From Alphaproteobacteria bacterium (GTDB lineage Bacteria > Pseudomonadota > Alphaproteobacteria > Rs-D84), in the NCBI GenBank assembly GCA_017513285.1, contig JAFXGD010000081.1:1-35749 (forward strand): DNA of 35,749 nucleotides, given 5' to 3'. Positions 13 to 25,366 of this stretch are shown in pieces (the stretch's first letter is position 1; every line of letters begins with the position of its first letter). The notes beneath the pieces are model-generated. The model saw nothing but the letters and a program-made list of their open reading frames with translations, did no database searches and was not told the DNA's origin. The translations under genes were made by a program, and so were the position numbers.

Positions 13-879
13 ATGAAAACACAAACATTGATTTTAATACCGGCATTAATGCTGGGGTATGGTGCGAATGCGGCGGCGCAGTGTTCGCACGCAAACTTGA
101 TACGTTGTCTGGATTCTGCGTGTGCGATAAACATTTCATCGAACACGATTGCCCGGTGTCAATACTGTGGCACATCTGCGGCGGGTACCCCCCCGACCAA
201 AAATGTAATGAAATCCCTGTCGGCGGGTTCATCGACGAAATATAACATATCTGACAAAGAATTAAAGACCGCCCCGACGGATGCGGGCGAACGCTATGCA
301 TGGGCGACGTTGCGTTGTTTACAGAAATTACCGGACTGCACAATCACGGATGTCGCAGATGCATACGACCCATTAATTGAAACGGCCTGTGCGGGTGCGG
401 ATGCGTTATCCGGCGTTTCGGACATGATTGCAGATTTGCATTCGGAAAAAAGTGCATCTGTTTGTTCTGCGACGGTACGCAATTGCATGTTATCGAACGA
501 ACGCTGTGGTCCGGGCTTTGACAAATGCTTTGACGATGCGGATTTTGATCGTGAATTATCGACATGTCTGTTGGATGCACAAAAATGCGATGCGCACAGT
601 ACGGTTATACGTTCTGAAATACTTGCATCACGCACATCGACGATGGAATCATTAAATGCGGCATTGGATGCATTGATATCTGGGTATCGTACGGCACGTG
701 AAACCCGCATATCACAAATGCGTGCGGATTGCACATCTGGGGCATTACGTGACAAATGCATTGCATCTGTCTGCGACCAGAATATGCCGAATCGGTGTGG
801 TGCGGGATTTGAATCGGAAAAATCCATGGCGACCCAATTATGCAAATATTACGACACGGCATGCACACGAATTGATTAA
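13..879 (+). CDS. Exported cysteine-rich protein of unknown function
   Basis: I do not recognise a named family. The 288-residue product starts with a signal peptide (residues 1-22, hydrophobic core then N-A-A-A before Q23), so it should reach the periplasm or beyond. More than twenty cysteines follow, suggesting disulfide bonds. From Cys151 there is a module C-x6-C-x6-C-G-x2-F-x-K-C-x13-C-x6-C that recurs twice in the next gene. A degenerate copy near the C-terminus keeps C-G-x-G-F and the last C-x6-C. The ATG follows a purine-rich stretch (GAGAGA). The gene ends 26 bases before the next one, so they are probably co-transcribed. The upstream promoter lies outside the window. Confidence 0.8.
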   Translation: MKTQTLILIPALMLGYGANAAAQCSHANLIRCLDSACAINISSNTIARCQYCGTSAAGTPPTKNVMKSLSAGSSTKYNISDKELKTAPTDAGERYAWATLRCLQKLPDCTITDVADAYDPLIETACAGADALSGVSDMIADLHSEKSASVCSATVRNCMLSNERCGPGFDKCFDDADFDRELSTCLLDAQKCDAHSTVIRSEILASRTSTMESLNAALDALISGYRTARETRISQMRADCTSGALRDKCIASVCDQNMPNRCGAGFESEKSMATQLCKYYDTACTRID

Positions 880-905
880 AGAAATAACATACGGGGAAAA
901 CAGAC

Positions 906-2663
906 ATGACTATGCGACACAACAACCGGGCAACATATGGTATATTGGGATTTACGTTTGGGATGATTGCGTGCATTGATGCGCAATCTGCATCTGTTGT
1001 GTCCCGCACGCCCCGTCCGACATCTGGTGCGAACGCTGTATTGGCTGCACAATCGTCGGCGGCGACAACATCTGCAGCATCTGCGCCGACATCGACATCG
1101 CAACCCGCATCATCTGCCAAATCCCCCACGTCGGGCGGCAACATCCCCCACAGCATATCGAACAAATCATCATACTTTTCATCATTTTTGGGGTTATCAT
1201 CATCTGCGGATGCGACGGGTACATCATTGGCGGACAAAGTGCGTGCCCAACGTGAATTATTGGCGGCGAAATCCGCAACGGATGAAATTGTTGGCAAAAC
1301 GGTTACGATATCTGCGGGTGCGAACGCATGCGACACGGCACTGCGTGCATGCATGATGGAGAAGTGCGGATCGGATTTTTCGAAATGTGCGGGTGATTCG
1401 GACACGATATGGGGGCAAAAGATTGATTCATGCCGTCGCAACACAACCTGTACCGGCCATGAATATGCCCAAATTGCGCCTGAGATTCGTGCAGATCGTG
1501 ACTTTAACGAACGGATATCGGCCTATACATCTGTGATTGATTGTGGCAACCGTTACAACGAATGCATTATCACGGAATGCGGTGCGAATTTTGGCAAATG
1601 TTTGGGCAAAACGGCGGGCGACCACGCCATATCCCTGTGCGACAAAATTGCCCGCGAATGCGCCAGTGCAGACAACGGATTGGCATCCCGTGTTATGAAT
1701 GTATTTGGCACATTACGTGGCGATGCGGAACGTGCGGTCCAGGCGGACGAACGTCGTCTGTACGAATTACGTGACACGATGCGTGGTGCGTGCGAACGAT
1801 TGGGTGCGATGTTTGACGAACGATCATTGGACTGTGTATTTACGGTAAACTTCTATGCGGGATCGGATTCGACGTTATACGCATCCAAGAAAGCATATGC
1901 GGGTGCATCATTTACATGTGATCCGAATTGGTTTGGTGTTGACGTGACGACATTTATGGAAAATGCGTTTCGTCTGACCCGGGAACAGGCATCTGCCTCT
2001 GCTGCGATGTTGGGTGCTGGTTTGGGTGTTGGTGTTGGTGCGGTAACATCTGGTGCGATTGATCGTGCGATGACGACCCATGCGGCCAAGAAAGAATTAA
2101 AAGACGCCCAACAAGAACATGAAGAATTATATGGCGACGGCACCAAAGCCGACCAAAGAAGAAAGAAAAGATGTGAGAACGATAACGGCACATGGGATGC
2201 AGCAACCAATACGTGCAAATGCCAAGATGGGTACACAGAAAAGTCAAACGGCGGTTGCAAGAAAATAAACACCGACAAAAAACAAAAATCGTTAACGGGG
2301 GTGGATAAAAACGACGGAAAAAAATCCGACCGTGATATACGTCGCCAACAAGAACGGGAAGAAGAATACATGAAAAAACAACAGGATCGCATAGAACAGC
2401 TTAGCAAACGTGTCAACAAGAAAGTATCTGACCACCTATCCGACGAAATAAACGATAACTTCCGTGCACAGTTTGGCGAGCCACTAAAACGCGATGGGAC
2501 AATACCAGAAATTGAAATACGCGAAGTAGTAGAAGAGCTAGAGGAAGACCCAGAAATGATCAACAACGGTTCCAACAACGGAAACAACAATTCCGAAACC
2601 GGAAGTGGCGGTTCCAGTGGCAAATCTGCCCCCAATGTCACCATAGAATCAACTGCGGAATAA
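906..2663 (+). CDS. Exported cysteine-rich protein with glycine-zipper segment, unknown function
   Basis: The 585-residue product has a signal-type N-terminus (hydrophobic residues about 11-25, likely cleavage after I-D-A). Residues about 30-100 are Ala/Ser/Thr-rich and low complexity. Two copies of the C-x6-C-x4-C-G-x2-F-x-K-C module follow at about 142-183 and 213-252. Around 310-390 a segment D-C-x-F-x-V ... F-x-C-D-x3-F-G runs into a Gly-rich helix (G-A-G-L-G-V-G-V-G-A), the same order as in the protein at 18665-20518. An EGF-like cysteine cluster and a charged, coiled-coil-like tail with an Asn/Gly/Ser-rich end follow. Codon choice shifts from about base 2100. Residue M3 is an alternative start. 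Function unknown; an envelope or surface role is inferred. Confidence 0.8.
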   Translation: MTMRHNNRATYGILGFTFGMIACIDAQSASVVSRTPRPTSGANAVLAAQSSAATTSAASAPTSTSQPASSAKSPTSGGNIPHSISNKSSYFSSFLGLSSSADATGTSLADKVRAQRELLAAKSATDEIVGKTVTISAGANACDTALRACMMEKCGSDFSKCAGDSDTIWGQKIDSCRRNTTCTGHEYAQIAPEIRADRDFNERISAYTSVIDCGNRYNECIITECGANFGKCLGKTAGDHAISLCDKIARECASADNGLASRVMNVFGTLRGDAERAVQADERRLYELRDTMRGACERLGAMFDERSLDCVFTVNFYAGSDSTLYASKKAYAGASFTCDPNWFGVDVTTFMENAFRLTREQASASAAMLGAGLGVGVGAVTSGAIDRAMTTHAAKKELKDAQQEHEELYGDGTKADQRRKKRCENDNGTWDAATNTCKCQDGYTEKSNGGCKKINTDKKQKSLTGVDKNDGKKSDRDIRRQQEREEEYMKKQQDRIEQLSKRVNKKVSDHLSDEINDNFRAQFGEPLKRDGTIPEIEIREVVEELEEDPEMINNGSNNGNNNSETGSGGSSGKSAPNVTIESTAE

Positions 2664-18664: not shown

Positions 18665-20518
18665 TTATTTGGGATTAACCGGCAATGGCGTCGCCTTGCA
18701 TGCGCCATGCGCCCGGGCCGCCGCATAGTTCATTTGACACGCCCCATTGTCTCCAACCATACACGCCGATTTTACATTAATTGGCGCAACAGAATCCGGT
18801 GAACGATAATTGACAATCGCCGCCCGACATTGATTTGCATCGGACAATGATGCGCATGCATTACGCCATGTCTGACAATTGCGCACATCCAATGTTGGCA
18901 CAACGGTTTCGGGCAAACGCAATCCCCATTTAACATAAATATCACGCAAAGTCCCAATTTCATATGATTTGCCCAATGGCACAACAGATAACCCATCACC
19001 AACACGACAATTGATATTATTATGCTCTACCAATGCGGTAATTGCGGTTGCGATACCACCGGCCCCGGCACCAACTGCCGCACCAACCCCGGCCCCCAAT
19101 CCGACATCACCAACCCCATTTTTTGCTGGCGCATTCTGTAACACTGCACATACCGCCTCACATTTGTCAGCATCAGTTTTCAAAACCTCACTAATGTTTT
19201 TCCACAGTTCCTGCACAGCATCATCACCACCAGATATAGTAATCGTTAGTTCTTTATCCACTACAGTTGCATGACATTGACACGGTACAAACAGCTTTCT
19301 AAACTCTTTCAAGTCCTTACATTGCTGTTCATTTAACGTAGTCAACGACTCTACGCCAAGCAATTGTTGCACTTCCGTCTCAACCCCATTTTTTTGTATT
19401 CTTTTATACCAACGATCGCGAGTTTTAGCATCCGAACAATCTGTTTCCGCACCCGTACCGGCACCAATTCCGGCACCGACACCCGCACCAACAATGGCAC
19501 CACCCGGCACCGCCACGGTTGCAACCGTACGTGTATCATTCATCAAAGAAAATCCAAACAAATCTTTATTACATTTAAATGATGAACCTGCCGGTTGCCA
19601 TACTTCGGCCGGTTGGTCATCACCTGCGGCACCAAACAACCAAGTATTTGAAATATGTTTATCCTTGTTATATGCCGCCACACGGATATAGCATGTTGCC
19701 GTTTTGGCATCCCATCGGGCATAATGACCACGTTCTGCATCAACGGCACCATTTTCATTCACCAACGCCCCCACAGGATTATCTTTTTGCAAAGAATTAT
19801 TCTGCTGTTCGTTATATGCACCAATTTTATTATCATATTCATCTGTTACGGCGCCATCAACGGCGGCAAATTCTGTGCCATATGTATTTTTATCCAACAG
19901 ACGACATGTATTTTCCGCCTGATACGGGGTCAATCCTGTTTTCCGCAACACAAAATCAAAATATTCCGGCTGAACCCGACGCAAATTAAAGTCATACCAA
20001 ACATCCGCAGACGTTTCATAAACGTATTCACAATTCACACGCACATCCGCAATACATTTTTCAACCTGGACTCTGCACAATCCCATATTTGCAAATATAT
20101 CATCACGAATATTCTTGTCATACAATTCTGTCATGCCACCTGACAAAGCACCACCCGTTATACATGCCTTTAAATCATCCATACAATTTTCAACTGTATA
20201 ATCCGAATTTTTGACCCCACCATCCGGACAATCTGGCGTGGGTTCTGGTTCCGGCTCTGGTTCCGGCTCGGGCTCTGGTTCGGGTTCTGGCTGTGGGGTT
20301 TGTGGTTGTGGATTTTTAATTGTCACATCTGTAACCGTCCCAGGTATGGTGATGGTTGGCATACTGGGCATGCGTGGCGCAGCATTTGCGCCCGCCATTG
20401 GGCGAACATTTTGATATGCCGCACGTCCCGACGCAACCGCTGTATCTGCATTGCAAACCGCCACAACCGCAATCGCCGACACCGCCGATAATCCAAATAC
20501 CTTGAAAAATCCAGACAT
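18665..20518 (-). CDS. Exported cysteine-rich protein with (Pro-Glu)n linker, unknown function
   Basis: A 617-residue protein with a signal peptide (about 1-29, ending near A-V-A-S). A Pro-Glu repeat of about eight P-E pairs around residues 75-95 acts as a stiff spacer. Cysteine pairs spaced C-x6-C follow. Then comes D-A-x3-C-Y-I-x-V ... S-F-K-C-N-x3-F-G and a Gly-rich segment, in the same order as in the protein at 906-2663, so the two are probably related. A second Gly-rich segment (G-L-G-A-G-V-G-A-A-V-G-A-G) lies near 480-500. No named family is recognised. The start has AGGGGGA and an extended -10 promoter. Confidence 0.8.
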   Translation of the reverse strand: MSGFFKVFGLSAVSAIAVVAVCNADTAVASGRAAYQNVRPMAGANAAPRMPSMPTITIPGTVTDVTIKNPQPQTPQPEPEPEPEPEPEPEPEPTPDCPDGGVKNSDYTVENCMDDLKACITGGALSGGMTELYDKNIRDDIFANMGLCRVQVEKCIADVRVNCEYVYETSADVWYDFNLRRVQPEYFDFVLRKTGLTPYQAENTCRLLDKNTYGTEFAAVDGAVTDEYDNKIGAYNEQQNNSLQKDNPVGALVNENGAVDAERGHYARWDAKTATCYIRVAAYNKDKHISNTWLFGAAGDDQPAEVWQPAGSSFKCNKDLFGFSLMNDTRTVATVAVPGGAIVGAGVGAGIGAGTGAETDCSDAKTRDRWYKRIQKNGVETEVQQLLGVESLTTLNEQQCKDLKEFRKLFVPCQCHATVVDKELTITISGGDDAVQELWKNISEVLKTDADKCEAVCAVLQNAPAKNGVGDVGLGAGVGAAVGAGAGGIATAITALVEHNNINCRVGDGLSVVPLGKSYEIGTLRDIYVKWGLRLPETVVPTLDVRNCQTWRNACASLSDANQCRAAIVNYRSPDSVAPINVKSACMVGDNGACQMNYAAARAHGACKATPLPVNPK

Positions 20519-21731: not shown

Positions 21732-22033
21732 GGAATAAATTAAAGATAATGATTTAGATAAACGGATTGGGGGTGTCGTAGTGTACATAACGCTACATGA
21801 GCCGTACCCCCCCACCCCCTTGCGGTGGGAATAAATTAAAGATAATGATTTAGATAAAAGTGAAAACACCGGCGTAGTGTACAGAAGTTACATGAGCCAC
21901 CCCACCCCCTTGCGGTGGGAATAAATTAAAGATAATGATTTAGATACGGAACGGTCCCGACAACGTAGTGTACACAAACGTACATGAGTTGTCGGGACCG
22001 CCCGTAGATAAATTATTAGATTTAATTTATTTA
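21732..22033. repeat. Palindromic element array 1 (three units)
   Basis: Three direct copies of GGAATAAATTAAAG and the following 15 bases start at 21732, 21828 and 21918. Each leads into a stem and the apex GTAG-TGTA-(7-8 nt)-TACA-TGA. Unit 3 is complete: stem CGGTCCCGACAAC (21952-21964) pairs with 21988-22000, and its outer arms pair to 22033. Units 1 and 2 end in CCCCTTGCGGTGG and lack the closing arm. In unit 1 the left stem matches array 2 but the right stem does not. The right end contains the TAA stop of the autotransporter gene. There is no T-run, so it is not a classic terminator. Confidence 0.9.
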
Positions 22034-25000
22034 GAAGGTTGCACGTAATTTAATCATACCCGTTTGTGAAGTATAATCTTCGTGCAAATCTAAATCATAC
22101 ATCAGTGACAAATCAACACCTTTGTATGTTGCGGTCAATCCGATACCGAATTCGCCACCCATGCGGCTTAAACGTTCGGAATCCACCTTGTATGATGCAA
22201 CACCTGGCAAGACAACCGTTGCGGCGGCATCATCACTGATGAAATCATACGTCATTGCAGCACGCAATTCTGGACGCAATTGGATTGCCCAATCATTTTC
22301 GATTGCAAAGGCATATTTCACACCTGCAACACCGGACAAGAAATCTGTATCCAGTGCTTTGGCAAAACCATTTGCATCCTGGGCAATATGCAGGTAACGC
22401 GCACCAACTTCGGTTGTGATACCGGTTGCAAAATCATAACCTGTCATAACTTGCGCACCATAAGAATCAACATCATACGTTTCATTCCATACAGCACCTG
22501 CAATTGTCTTGTTGTCTGTATATTCACTCATTGTATATGTTGCTGTTGCGTTTATGAACCATTGGGTTGGCTTATATTGACCATACAGGAATACAGTCTT
22601 GCTGTCGATATCTGTATGCACACCATCGGCATGGACGTCAGAGTTATTGATCGCCAAACCACCACCGATTGTCCATGTGTCATCAATCAAAGTATCTGCA
22701 CCCAATGCGACCCCACGTGTATAACCATGGAATTGATCCGCAAACTTTGATTTGTTAAACAATCCTTGCATCCAGAAACCATTTTCTTGTGTTCCCGCAT
22801 CACCACCGGCACGCCCAATAACTGGGGCTGGTGCCGACATACGTCCAGATGTTAATGCCAGAACCTGATTCTGAACAGACGATGCTGCCGCTTGGACAAC
22901 AGGTTTATCTGTCGGATTCAACTTTCTGGTTTCACGTTCCACCATCGTTGTATCACCCGAATTCAACGCTTCTTGCAGTGCCAATGACACATTCTTTAAC
23001 GTTGGATCTTGAACCTGGGTCAAACCTGCAACCGCACCTGCAGCCTGCATTGAAATACCTGCATCTGTCGCCAAATCTTCAATTGCTTTTGTTTCAACGA
23101 CAATGCCATCTAAACCTTTGTTCGTAACGACGTATGCCAAACCTGCATCGATTTGCATTTCCGTTTCTGTATCAAAGATTTTATACGTACCAACCGAACC
23201 GACGTTCAGTTTTAACAACGCATCTTCACCCGCATCGATTGTACCATACAAGCGACCATATGGACGACCATTTGTAACCGATGCGATAACCGTACCATCA
23301 ATCTTCAGGTTTTCAAATTCAACCTTTGATGTACCGATATCCATTTCTGCACCACTGGCCAATGTCAAAGTCGCACCTTCGCCACCAAATACATTACCAC
23401 TGAATGTTGTAAGCCCCGAATTGATTTGGATACTTTCGTTAACATTCAATTTGCCACCTGTAAATGTCGCATCATTTGCAACGATACGATCAACAAAGAT
23501 ACCACGTGTTGTATCTTGGATATTTACCGTACCATTATCGATAATCAAATCATTCAGAGCCGCATACGCAGAACCTTCATCCGTACCTTCAGAATCAACA
23601 ACTTTTGTTGCATTCCAAACCGCACCATTTTTCATTGTCAATTTAGATGAACTGACCTTTAAATACGATTCGTCCGGCGCCTTGCCTGAACCATATGATG
23701 CAACCGTATTCCCGGTCCAGAATGAATCTGTACCCGCCAAAGTCACATCAACATAAGCATCGACCTTGGACCCTGATGTCGCTTTATCATAGTTAAAGTC
23801 AATATTTCCCAACATTTTAACGACTTTATCGCCCTGTTTATTGATATTGACCTGGGCTTCACCACGTGCCACGATTGCTTTATCTGCTTTGATGGTTGTA
23901 TTACCAATAATGTTAACAACGCCCTGGCTCATTGCCGCAACCGCTGTACCATCTGTGGCATCATTTGTAATTACAATATTGTCGCCTTCTATATTGACGG
24001 TTGCCGACGTGCTATAGTCATGATCGGGGCTAATTACATTTACACCGGCATGAATTGCACCTTTACCCGATGCATTATTGGCAATATTGATATATTTTCC
24101 ATCGATATTAACTTTGGAATTCAAATACAACGCCATAACGCCATAATTATCATTTGCAGAAATTTCAACACTTTCCGTATCAACACTGCCGATATTCAGA
24201 ACTGCGCCATTGTCTGCACGTGCGCCACGACCGTCTGTGATTGCAGCAATTTCAATTTCTTTGGCGCCATTGGTACCAATATTGATGATTGCTTTATCAC
24301 TGGCCAAAACACCATCTGTTTTGGATTCGACTTCTATTTCATTGGCATTAATATCAACCGATGACCCCTCGGTCACAGCATATACATTACCATTGATTTC
24401 AAAATCATCTTTGGCTGTGATTTCAACGACACCTTTATCCTTGGCGGTAATATTACCGTTTATCGTACCTTCATCACCGAATGCCAAGTTAATTCCACCA
24501 CCCGGCAATATCTCACCATTGGCACTAACCAACACATCCCCTGTAATTGACGATCCCGTCCCCTTTAATCCAATATTGACAGCAGATCCTTGCGCGGCGC
24601 CAATATTGCCACGGATTGTTGTCTTGGCCACATTGCCATCATTCTGATTTATATCAATGGTCATGTGTGCCTTGCCACCATAAACATCGTTGTAACCATT
24701 AATATCACCAACGATATCCAAGGTTTCGTTTGCGACCAAATTTAACTTACCTTCATTACCGGTAATTGCAGTTCCCGCCGTTTCAATAGACACTTTATTG
24801 GCATAAATATTTAATTCTTGATTACCCACATGTCCTTGTCCGGTCTTGTTGTTATCTGTCACGGCATCTGTAATATATATCGCCGCGCCACCATTTGTAT
24901 GTTTTAAATTAACCTCACCCAACGATTGACTTTCTGTACCAATGTTTAATTTTGCAAAACGCGAAACCAATGGATAAGTCCCCTCTTCATCGGACGTCAA

Positions 25001-25366
25001 TGTCAAGACAGTATTGTTATCACCTTCTACATTGACCACCGGTGCAATATCCTCTGCTGGCTGATTTTGAATACCCGAAAACAAAGCATCCGCCGTAATC
25101 TTACCCGCATCATCTGGTGCAACAACCATAACATTCGTATCCAAGTCATGCGAAAAAGAACCCGCCGTCAAATTTAATACACGAATCAACCCCTTCTGAT
25201 AGCTATCGCGTCCCAATTCATCTGTCTTTGTATTGGTAACATAGTCAACCGGCTCTGCCACAGATGCCGTTTTTTCTACAACCTCTGCCATTGCGGGCAT
25301 AATTGCCAACGCCGGCAAAATACTGCAAACTTTCACCAAGTCTGCCAAATGTTTTGTATTCGACAT
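22031..25366 (-). CDS. Autotransporter (type Va secreted surface protein)
   Basis: The 1111-residue protein has a signal peptide (about 1-27, ending A-M-A), a long passenger (about 30-800) of short repeats rich in I-N-I-x-G, V-E-I-x-A and N-I-G patterns typical of a right-handed beta-helix, and a C-terminal beta-barrel (about 850-1111) ending in Phe (L-R-A-T-F). The barrel inserts in the outer membrane and exports the passenger. The target is unknown; adhesion is the common role. The start has a GGAG site. It stands where rpoA would normally follow rpsK, and palindromic arrays lie on both sides. Confidence 0.9.
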   Translation of the reverse strand: MSNTKHLADLVKVCSILPALAIMPAMAEVVEKTASVAEPVDYVTNTKTDELGRDSYQKGLIRVLNLTAGSFSHDLDTNVMVVAPDDAGKITADALFSGIQNQPAEDIAPVVNVEGDNNTVLTLTSDEEGTYPLVSRFAKLNIGTESQSLGEVNLKHTNGGAAIYITDAVTDNNKTGQGHVGNQELNIYANKVSIETAGTAITGNEGKLNLVANETLDIVGDINGYNDVYGGKAHMTIDINQNDGNVAKTTIRGNIGAAQGSAVNIGLKGTGSSITGDVLVSANGEILPGGGINLAFGDEGTINGNITAKDKGVVEITAKDDFEINGNVYAVTEGSSVDINANEIEVESKTDGVLASDKAIINIGTNGAKEIEIAAITDGRGARADNGAVLNIGSVDTESVEISANDNYGVMALYLNSKVNIDGKYINIANNASGKGAIHAGVNVISPDHDYSTSATVNIEGDNIVITNDATDGTAVAAMSQGVVNIIGNTTIKADKAIVARGEAQVNINKQGDKVVKMLGNIDFNYDKATSGSKVDAYVDVTLAGTDSFWTGNTVASYGSGKAPDESYLKVSSSKLTMKNGAVWNATKVVDSEGTDEGSAYAALNDLIIDNGTVNIQDTTRGIFVDRIVANDATFTGGKLNVNESIQINSGLTTFSGNVFGGEGATLTLASGAEMDIGTSKVEFENLKIDGTVIASVTNGRPYGRLYGTIDAGEDALLKLNVGSVGTYKIFDTETEMQIDAGLAYVVTNKGLDGIVVETKAIEDLATDAGISMQAAGAVAGLTQVQDPTLKNVSLALQEALNSGDTTMVERETRKLNPTDKPVVQAAASSVQNQVLALTSGRMSAPAPVIGRAGGDAGTQENGFWMQGLFNKSKFADQFHGYTRGVALGADTLIDDTWTIGGGLAINNSDVHADGVHTDIDSKTVFLYGQYKPTQWFINATATYTMSEYTDNKTIAGAVWNETYDVDSYGAQVMTGYDFATGITTEVGARYLHIAQDANGFAKALDTDFLSGVAGVKYAFAIENDWAIQLRPELRAAMTYDFISDDAAATVVLPGVASYKVDSERLSRMGGEFGIGLTATYKGVDLSLMYDLDLHEDYTSQTGMIKLRATF

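Follow-up and report, generated by a model that had tools for sequence, protein, structure and literature searches.

A cysteine module confined to one bacterial order among the genomes searched is a probable exported, disulfide-laddered helical hairpin

Results

The window, by which we mean the whole stretch of 35,749 nucleotides that was analysed, opens with three forward-strand genes, termed P1, P2 and P3. P1 (13–879, +) is an open reading frame of 288 aa with a hydrophobic N-terminus; the protein is predicted to be exported and has 20 Cys, all of them conserved among orthologues. These are distributed over three modules, one diverged with eight Cys and two with six. The diverged region (Cys24–126; 82–390, +), recognised by comparing Cys patterns between families, contains Cys 24, 32, 37, 49, 52, 102, 109 and 126 and resembles the eight-Cys first module of the large paralogues described below, with which it appears to be homologous. 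The six-Cys copies lie at Cys151–192 (463–588, +; spacing 6-6-6-12-6), where the AlphaFold model has a helix-loop-helix, and at Cys240–284 at the end of the protein (730–864, +; spacing 8-4-7-14-6). The first 43 residues of P1 (window 13–141) are identically encoded at the end of another contig, C42 (C42:30767–30895), which overlaps the window start and most likely lies directly upstream of it.

P2 (906–2663, +; 585 aa), also predicted to be exported, has a charged C-terminal tail and, ahead of it, two modules, a small beta region and a glycine-zipper stretch. The modules lie at Cys142–182 (1329–1451, +; spacing 6-4-6-14-5) and Cys213–252 (1542–1661, +; spacing 6-4-6-12-6). They are followed by the three-Cys beta region (Cys296, 310 and 338; 1749–1940, +), which has similar stretches in other family members, and by a glycine-zipper-like hydrophobic stretch read from the sequence (1989–2063, +), a possible membrane anchor. 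The mature chain has 19 Cys, an odd number that counts against the disulfide-laddered reading preferred below. Outside the module, a four-Cys stretch in the P2 tail (C423, C437, C439 and C451; 2172–2258) matches other proteins of the genus. The beta region at 1749–1940 shows a further recurrent pattern, C-x13-C-x-V-x-[VF] ... F-x-C, which looks like a small beta domain and which P2 has in common with a 617-aa protein of the window and other family members (L176, L077 and L076).

P3 (2794–5445, +; 883 aa) matches Pfam PF13715 and PF00691. Its order is a CarboxypepD_reg-like N-terminus, a Cys-rich middle, glycine-rich hydrophobic stretches and an OmpA C-terminal domain (PF00691, residues 685–754, E=3.3e-12, over the cut-off). 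P1 and P2 are single-copy genes with ~40–59% identity and are nearly universal in the genus. They adjoin each other in ~64 of ~70 same-genus genomes, and a P3-like ORF follows directly 3′ of P2 on the same strand, both here and at most loci with enough sequence. Compared across these loci, P1-P2-P3 is a conserved gene order.

The module is ~42 residues long and has the order C1-x6-C2, C3-G-x2-[FY]-x2-C4, C5-x5/6-C6. An earlier note on this DNA had described three copies, one in P1 (from Cys151) and two in P2, and all three were found where it had placed them when we read the translations. The spacing is regular, as the note had said: it is fixed among P1 and P2 orthologues at 6-4/6-6-12/14-5/6, and the 89 distinct P1/P2 motif copies extracted show solely 6-6-6-12-6, 6-4-6-14-5 and 6-4-6-12-6. 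However, the C4–C5 gap is x12, x14 and x12 in the three copies, not x13–15. Alignments of 57 P1 and 56 P2 orthologues showed that the six Cys and one Gly, the residue after C3, are invariant. The C-G and C4 of the core that had been called invariant (C-G-x2-F-x-K-C) were upheld, but the Lys varies and the Phe is [FY] among relatives, which gives C-G-x2-[FY]-x2-C. The copy noted at the end of P1 is present but cannot be called degenerate, since its six Cys are kept in 57/57 orthologues.

The module has many relatives within one lineage. A profile (A1) built from 38 module copies matched all 78 of the genus genomes searched (~12 per genome), and module profile matches were present in 188 of 190 genomes of the order, the copies in its other families being fewer and more diverged. 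Among 385 genomes sampled from the class, matches were confined to those of the order. The phylum sample (398 genomes, overlapping in part with the class sample) added one weak match outside the order, which was taken as chance (E=5e-4, in a 35-aa frame containing a stop). Judged from these genomes, the module is restricted to one bacterial order; the profile search that had been suggested thus recovered it in many further proteins and genomes, and the expectation that it is special to its lineage was borne out. The plasmids and viral contigs searched contained no module relatives, so there is no sign of a mobile origin. Our scan of genome contigs returned a MAG from roe deer cecum as the sole close relative. 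Genome size is 0.5–1.1 Mb, and the lineage is probably a reduced-genome alphaproteobacterium, Ca. Enterousia, of the order Rs-D84. Bacteria of this group are described as gut inhabitants with reduced genomes that probably depend on partners (PMC12306168).

Combining profile matches with sequence stretches, we counted ~14 genes in this genome that carry the module or a recognisable variant. Besides those of P1, P2 and the 617-aa window protein there are ~eleven others, which encode up to 1,025 aa and are in some cases truncated at contig ends. Together with P3 these genes amount to ~32 kb, or 2.9% of the 1.1 Mb assembly. Cys content is 2.4–6.9% in the family compared with 0.1–2.1% in ten ordinary window proteins, and almost all complete members have a signal-peptide-like hydrophobic N-terminus, as called by a hydropathy heuristic rather than a trained predictor. 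Many members are diverged paralogues of 500–1100 aa with low-complexity linkers, and the C17 protein has five consecutive six-Cys modules. The 617-aa Cys-rich protein (18665–20518, −), predicted to be exported, is related to the middle region of P2 (it is matched by P2 residues 282–387, E=7.5e-4) and carries a four-Cys version of the module that lacks C3 and C4 (20054–20185, −; C112-x6-C119-x28-C148-x6-C155).

Several other features of these proteins were observed. In large paralogues, L138, L139 and L067 for example, the signal peptide is separated from the first module by ~100 residues with much Ala, Ser, Thr and Arg, possibly a flexible linker that spans the envelope. The near-identical stretch GCVTALD.CMQDEFVCGADYENCLDPSG occurs at contig breaks, at the end of L135, the start of L136 and the end of L137 (contigs C22, C83 and C5); its sharing by at least two paralogues suggests recent duplication or gene conversion. 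The window also encodes an 1111-aa autotransporter (22031–25366, −; PF03797) with one Cys, unlike the nearby Cys-rich exported proteins.

The conserved Cys of each paralogue family were mapped onto C1–C6, and most copies are complete. Four-Cys copies, in which Cys assignment rests on spacing and alignment, show three loss patterns only: C2+C5, C3+C4 and C1+C6. Loss of C2+C5 (101101) was seen in the first copy of family F2 (20/20), in L157 and in L077; L157 (family F9) has Val at both positions, where its orthologues have both Cys. C3+C4 are lost (110011) in the second copy of F2 (20/20) and in the 617-aa window protein, and C1+C6 (011110) in family F7 (7/7), L168 and L167. No odd or non-nested loss was found among the copies inspected, the core pattern in the search for incomplete copies being one that requires C3 and C4. 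A randomly lost pair fits a ladder in 3/15 cases, which for five events gives 0.2^5 = ~3e-4, assuming that the events are independent and the Cys correctly assigned. Because this pairwise co-loss matches the rungs of a nested ladder, the alignments support a pairing of C1–C6, C2–C5 and C3–C4, with up to three disulfides.

Structure prediction is consistent with this arrangement. The AlphaFold model of P1, with 41 orthologues as input, has a helix at 148–159 (C151, C158), a turn (C165, C172) and a helix at 175–188 (C185) with pLDDT ~90, followed by C192 and then a long helix. The P2 model is only fair overall (mean pLDDT 64) and has a helix-loop-helix twice (pLDDT ~80), then a small beta region. 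These models support two antiparallel helices in the module, in a layout that would match the nested ladder.

Contig C42 carries a DsbA-like gene (C42:14917–15393, −; PF01323 over the cut-off) together with two module genes. Of the 53 genomes searched within the order, 49 had such a gene above the cut-off, this one among them. A copy from a relative has a thioredoxin fold, CGYC, TGTPF and a hydrophobic N-terminus; between this genome and the relative, the DSBA/thioredoxin domain, the CxxC and the cis-Pro of a DsbA were all found. Profiles for DsbB and VKOR found nothing in any searched genome of the order, a point against the disulfide reading. The DsbA-like gene and P1 share a contig in about half of the genomes, 4–84 kb apart, a linkage that we set aside as evidence because it is biased by contig extents. 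We infer that the DsbA-like protein is membrane-anchored and oxidises the module proteins.

Searches for known relatives found nothing over the cut-off for P1 or P2 in Pfam, NCBIfam and PHROGs, nor for selected large paralogues in Pfam or NCBIfam. Profiles A1 and A2 had no match in a PDB profile search, and the best for A3 was E=0.72. Foldseek against the PDB and viral models gave no E <1 and no convincing fold, and the best VIA-align score (Z 5.7) is low for a helical protein, with matches scattered over unrelated chains. The papers found on 'CX6C' concern unrelated families. Since nothing matches it in Pfam, NCBIfam, PHROG or PDB sequence, the module is best read as a previously undescribed, separate lineage-specific domain, in agreement with the earlier note, whose author knew no domain of this pattern.

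Discussion

Our preferred reading, to which we give a probability of about 0.72, is that the module is an exported, disulfide-laddered helical hairpin. Helix A would bear C1-x6-C2, the turn C3-G-x2-[FY]-x2-C4 and helix B C5-x5/6-C6, and the two antiparallel helices would be stapled by up to three nested disulfides. The module proteins would leave the cytoplasm by Sec and be oxidised by the membrane-anchored DsbA-like protein. The earlier suggestion that the module is disulfide-bonded therefore gains support, at the level of sequence, from the nested pairwise co-loss, the signal-peptide-like N-termini and the retained DsbA-like protein. The same note had called it extracellular, which holds as far as export is concerned, but periplasm, outer membrane and surface are indistinguishable here.

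As to function, the oxidised proteins might assemble into a disulfide-stabilised complex of the envelope or surface. The glycine-zipper stretches and the P3 OmpA domain would fix such a complex to the outer membrane and the peptidoglycan, with P3 as the peptidoglycan anchor of the assembly. What links the module to an envelope complex is the OmpA domain of P3 and the P1-P2-P3 gene order, these two points only, and this function, taken alone, is possible at somewhat under even odds. More speculatively, and with the odds leaning further against it, the order may have evolved a new disulfide-laddered repeat into a lineage-wide envelope architecture of ~14 exported proteins, matured by a DsbA-like oxidase under anaerobic conditions without DsbB or VKOR.

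Proteins with the same hairpin could instead serve in attachment or nutrient capture, by binding to a partner cell or to gut material. Standard importers for sugars, amino acids and peptides are reported to be missing from the lineage, which is considered to be dependent on partners, and hypothetical membrane proteins have been proposed as mediators of its cell–cell contact (PMC12306168). The many diverged paralogues with their low-complexity linkers would also suit such a role. Nevertheless, we regard it as rather less likely than not: P1 and P2 are so conserved, as single-copy genes, that a core structural role fits them better than variable adhesins, and Pfam and NCBIfam scans found no known adhesin or carbohydrate-binding domain.

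Binding of a metal or cofactor (zinc, iron-sulfur or haem) by the Cys in place of disulfides would agree with zinc-finger-like Pfam scores, all below threshold (zf-CHCC 0.088, zf-Tim10 0.13). However, Cys are lost in nested pairs that leave four or six, the module has no CxxC or CxxCH core, and the proteins are predicted to be exported in cells with a DsbA-like oxidase. We rejected metal binding as the main reading on the pairwise Cys loss and consider it very improbable.

Strong divergence from a known Cys-hairpin family (CHCH twin CX9C, Tim10 or saposin) is also highly doubtful. The idea of antiparallel helices stapled by nested disulfides is common to both, but the spacing here is x6 and not x9 or x3, Pfam and PDB sequences are unmatched even by profile, Foldseek is unconvincing, and the module is bacterial and confined to one order. 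Chance spacing within Cys-rich sequence (P1 is 6.9% Cys) has a negligible probability and is untenable because the module is conserved across orthologues; it is refuted by their invariance, by the 188/190 profile matches and by 200,000 shuffles of P1 and P2, among which the bare Cys spacing occurred 31 times and the full motif never.

The module marks out a whole order of uncultured bacteria of the animal gut and offers a diagnostic signature for it. Its genes take up nearly 3% of the genome in a lineage that has shed much of its metabolism, so the module is likely to be central to the life of these cells. The biology of the order is almost unexplored, and the module offers a protein to express and solve. 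It also raises the question of how disulfides are formed, and the DsbA-like protein re-oxidised, in anaerobic, non-respiring cells in which neither DsbB nor VKOR was found.

Among known systems, the closest parallels in architecture are mitochondrial. The CHCH twin CX9C and Tim10-type twin CX3C proteins have antiparallel helices with nested disulfides and are oxidised after export, and the module shares with them its inferred arrangement of two helices, paired Cys and a nested ladder oxidised after export. Unlike CHCH proteins, the module pairs C-x6-C on helix A with C-x5/6-C on helix B (x7 to x9 in some paralogues). It differs from both types by an additional, third rung at the turn, C3-G-x2-[FY]-x2-C4, and in being bacterial and repeated inside large exported proteins. 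In agreement, the CHCH profile matched none of the 38 module copies at E<=10, and zf-Tim10_DDP reached E=0.13, below the cut-off, in one paralogue only. Saposins have six Cys with nested pairing C1–C6, C2–C5 and C3–C4, as inferred for the module, but the module is ~42 rather than ~80 residues long and has a two-helix layout and other spacing; no saposin family profile of Pfam matched the module proteins scanned.

In way of life, the nearest likeness is with the Chlamydia proteins OmcA and OmcB, which are likewise abundant, exported and Cys-rich and come from a bacterium that has a reduced genome, depends on a partner and possesses a DsbA-like oxidase. P1, P2 and the paralogues scanned gave no Pfam or NCBIfam match that would relate them to OmcA or OmcB. 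In Chlamydia, DsbA has a DsbB partner (PMC6752827), whereas none was found in the searched genomes of the order studied here. By analogy, the module proteins may have a role comparable to that of these chlamydial outer-membrane proteins, to which they would be unrelated.
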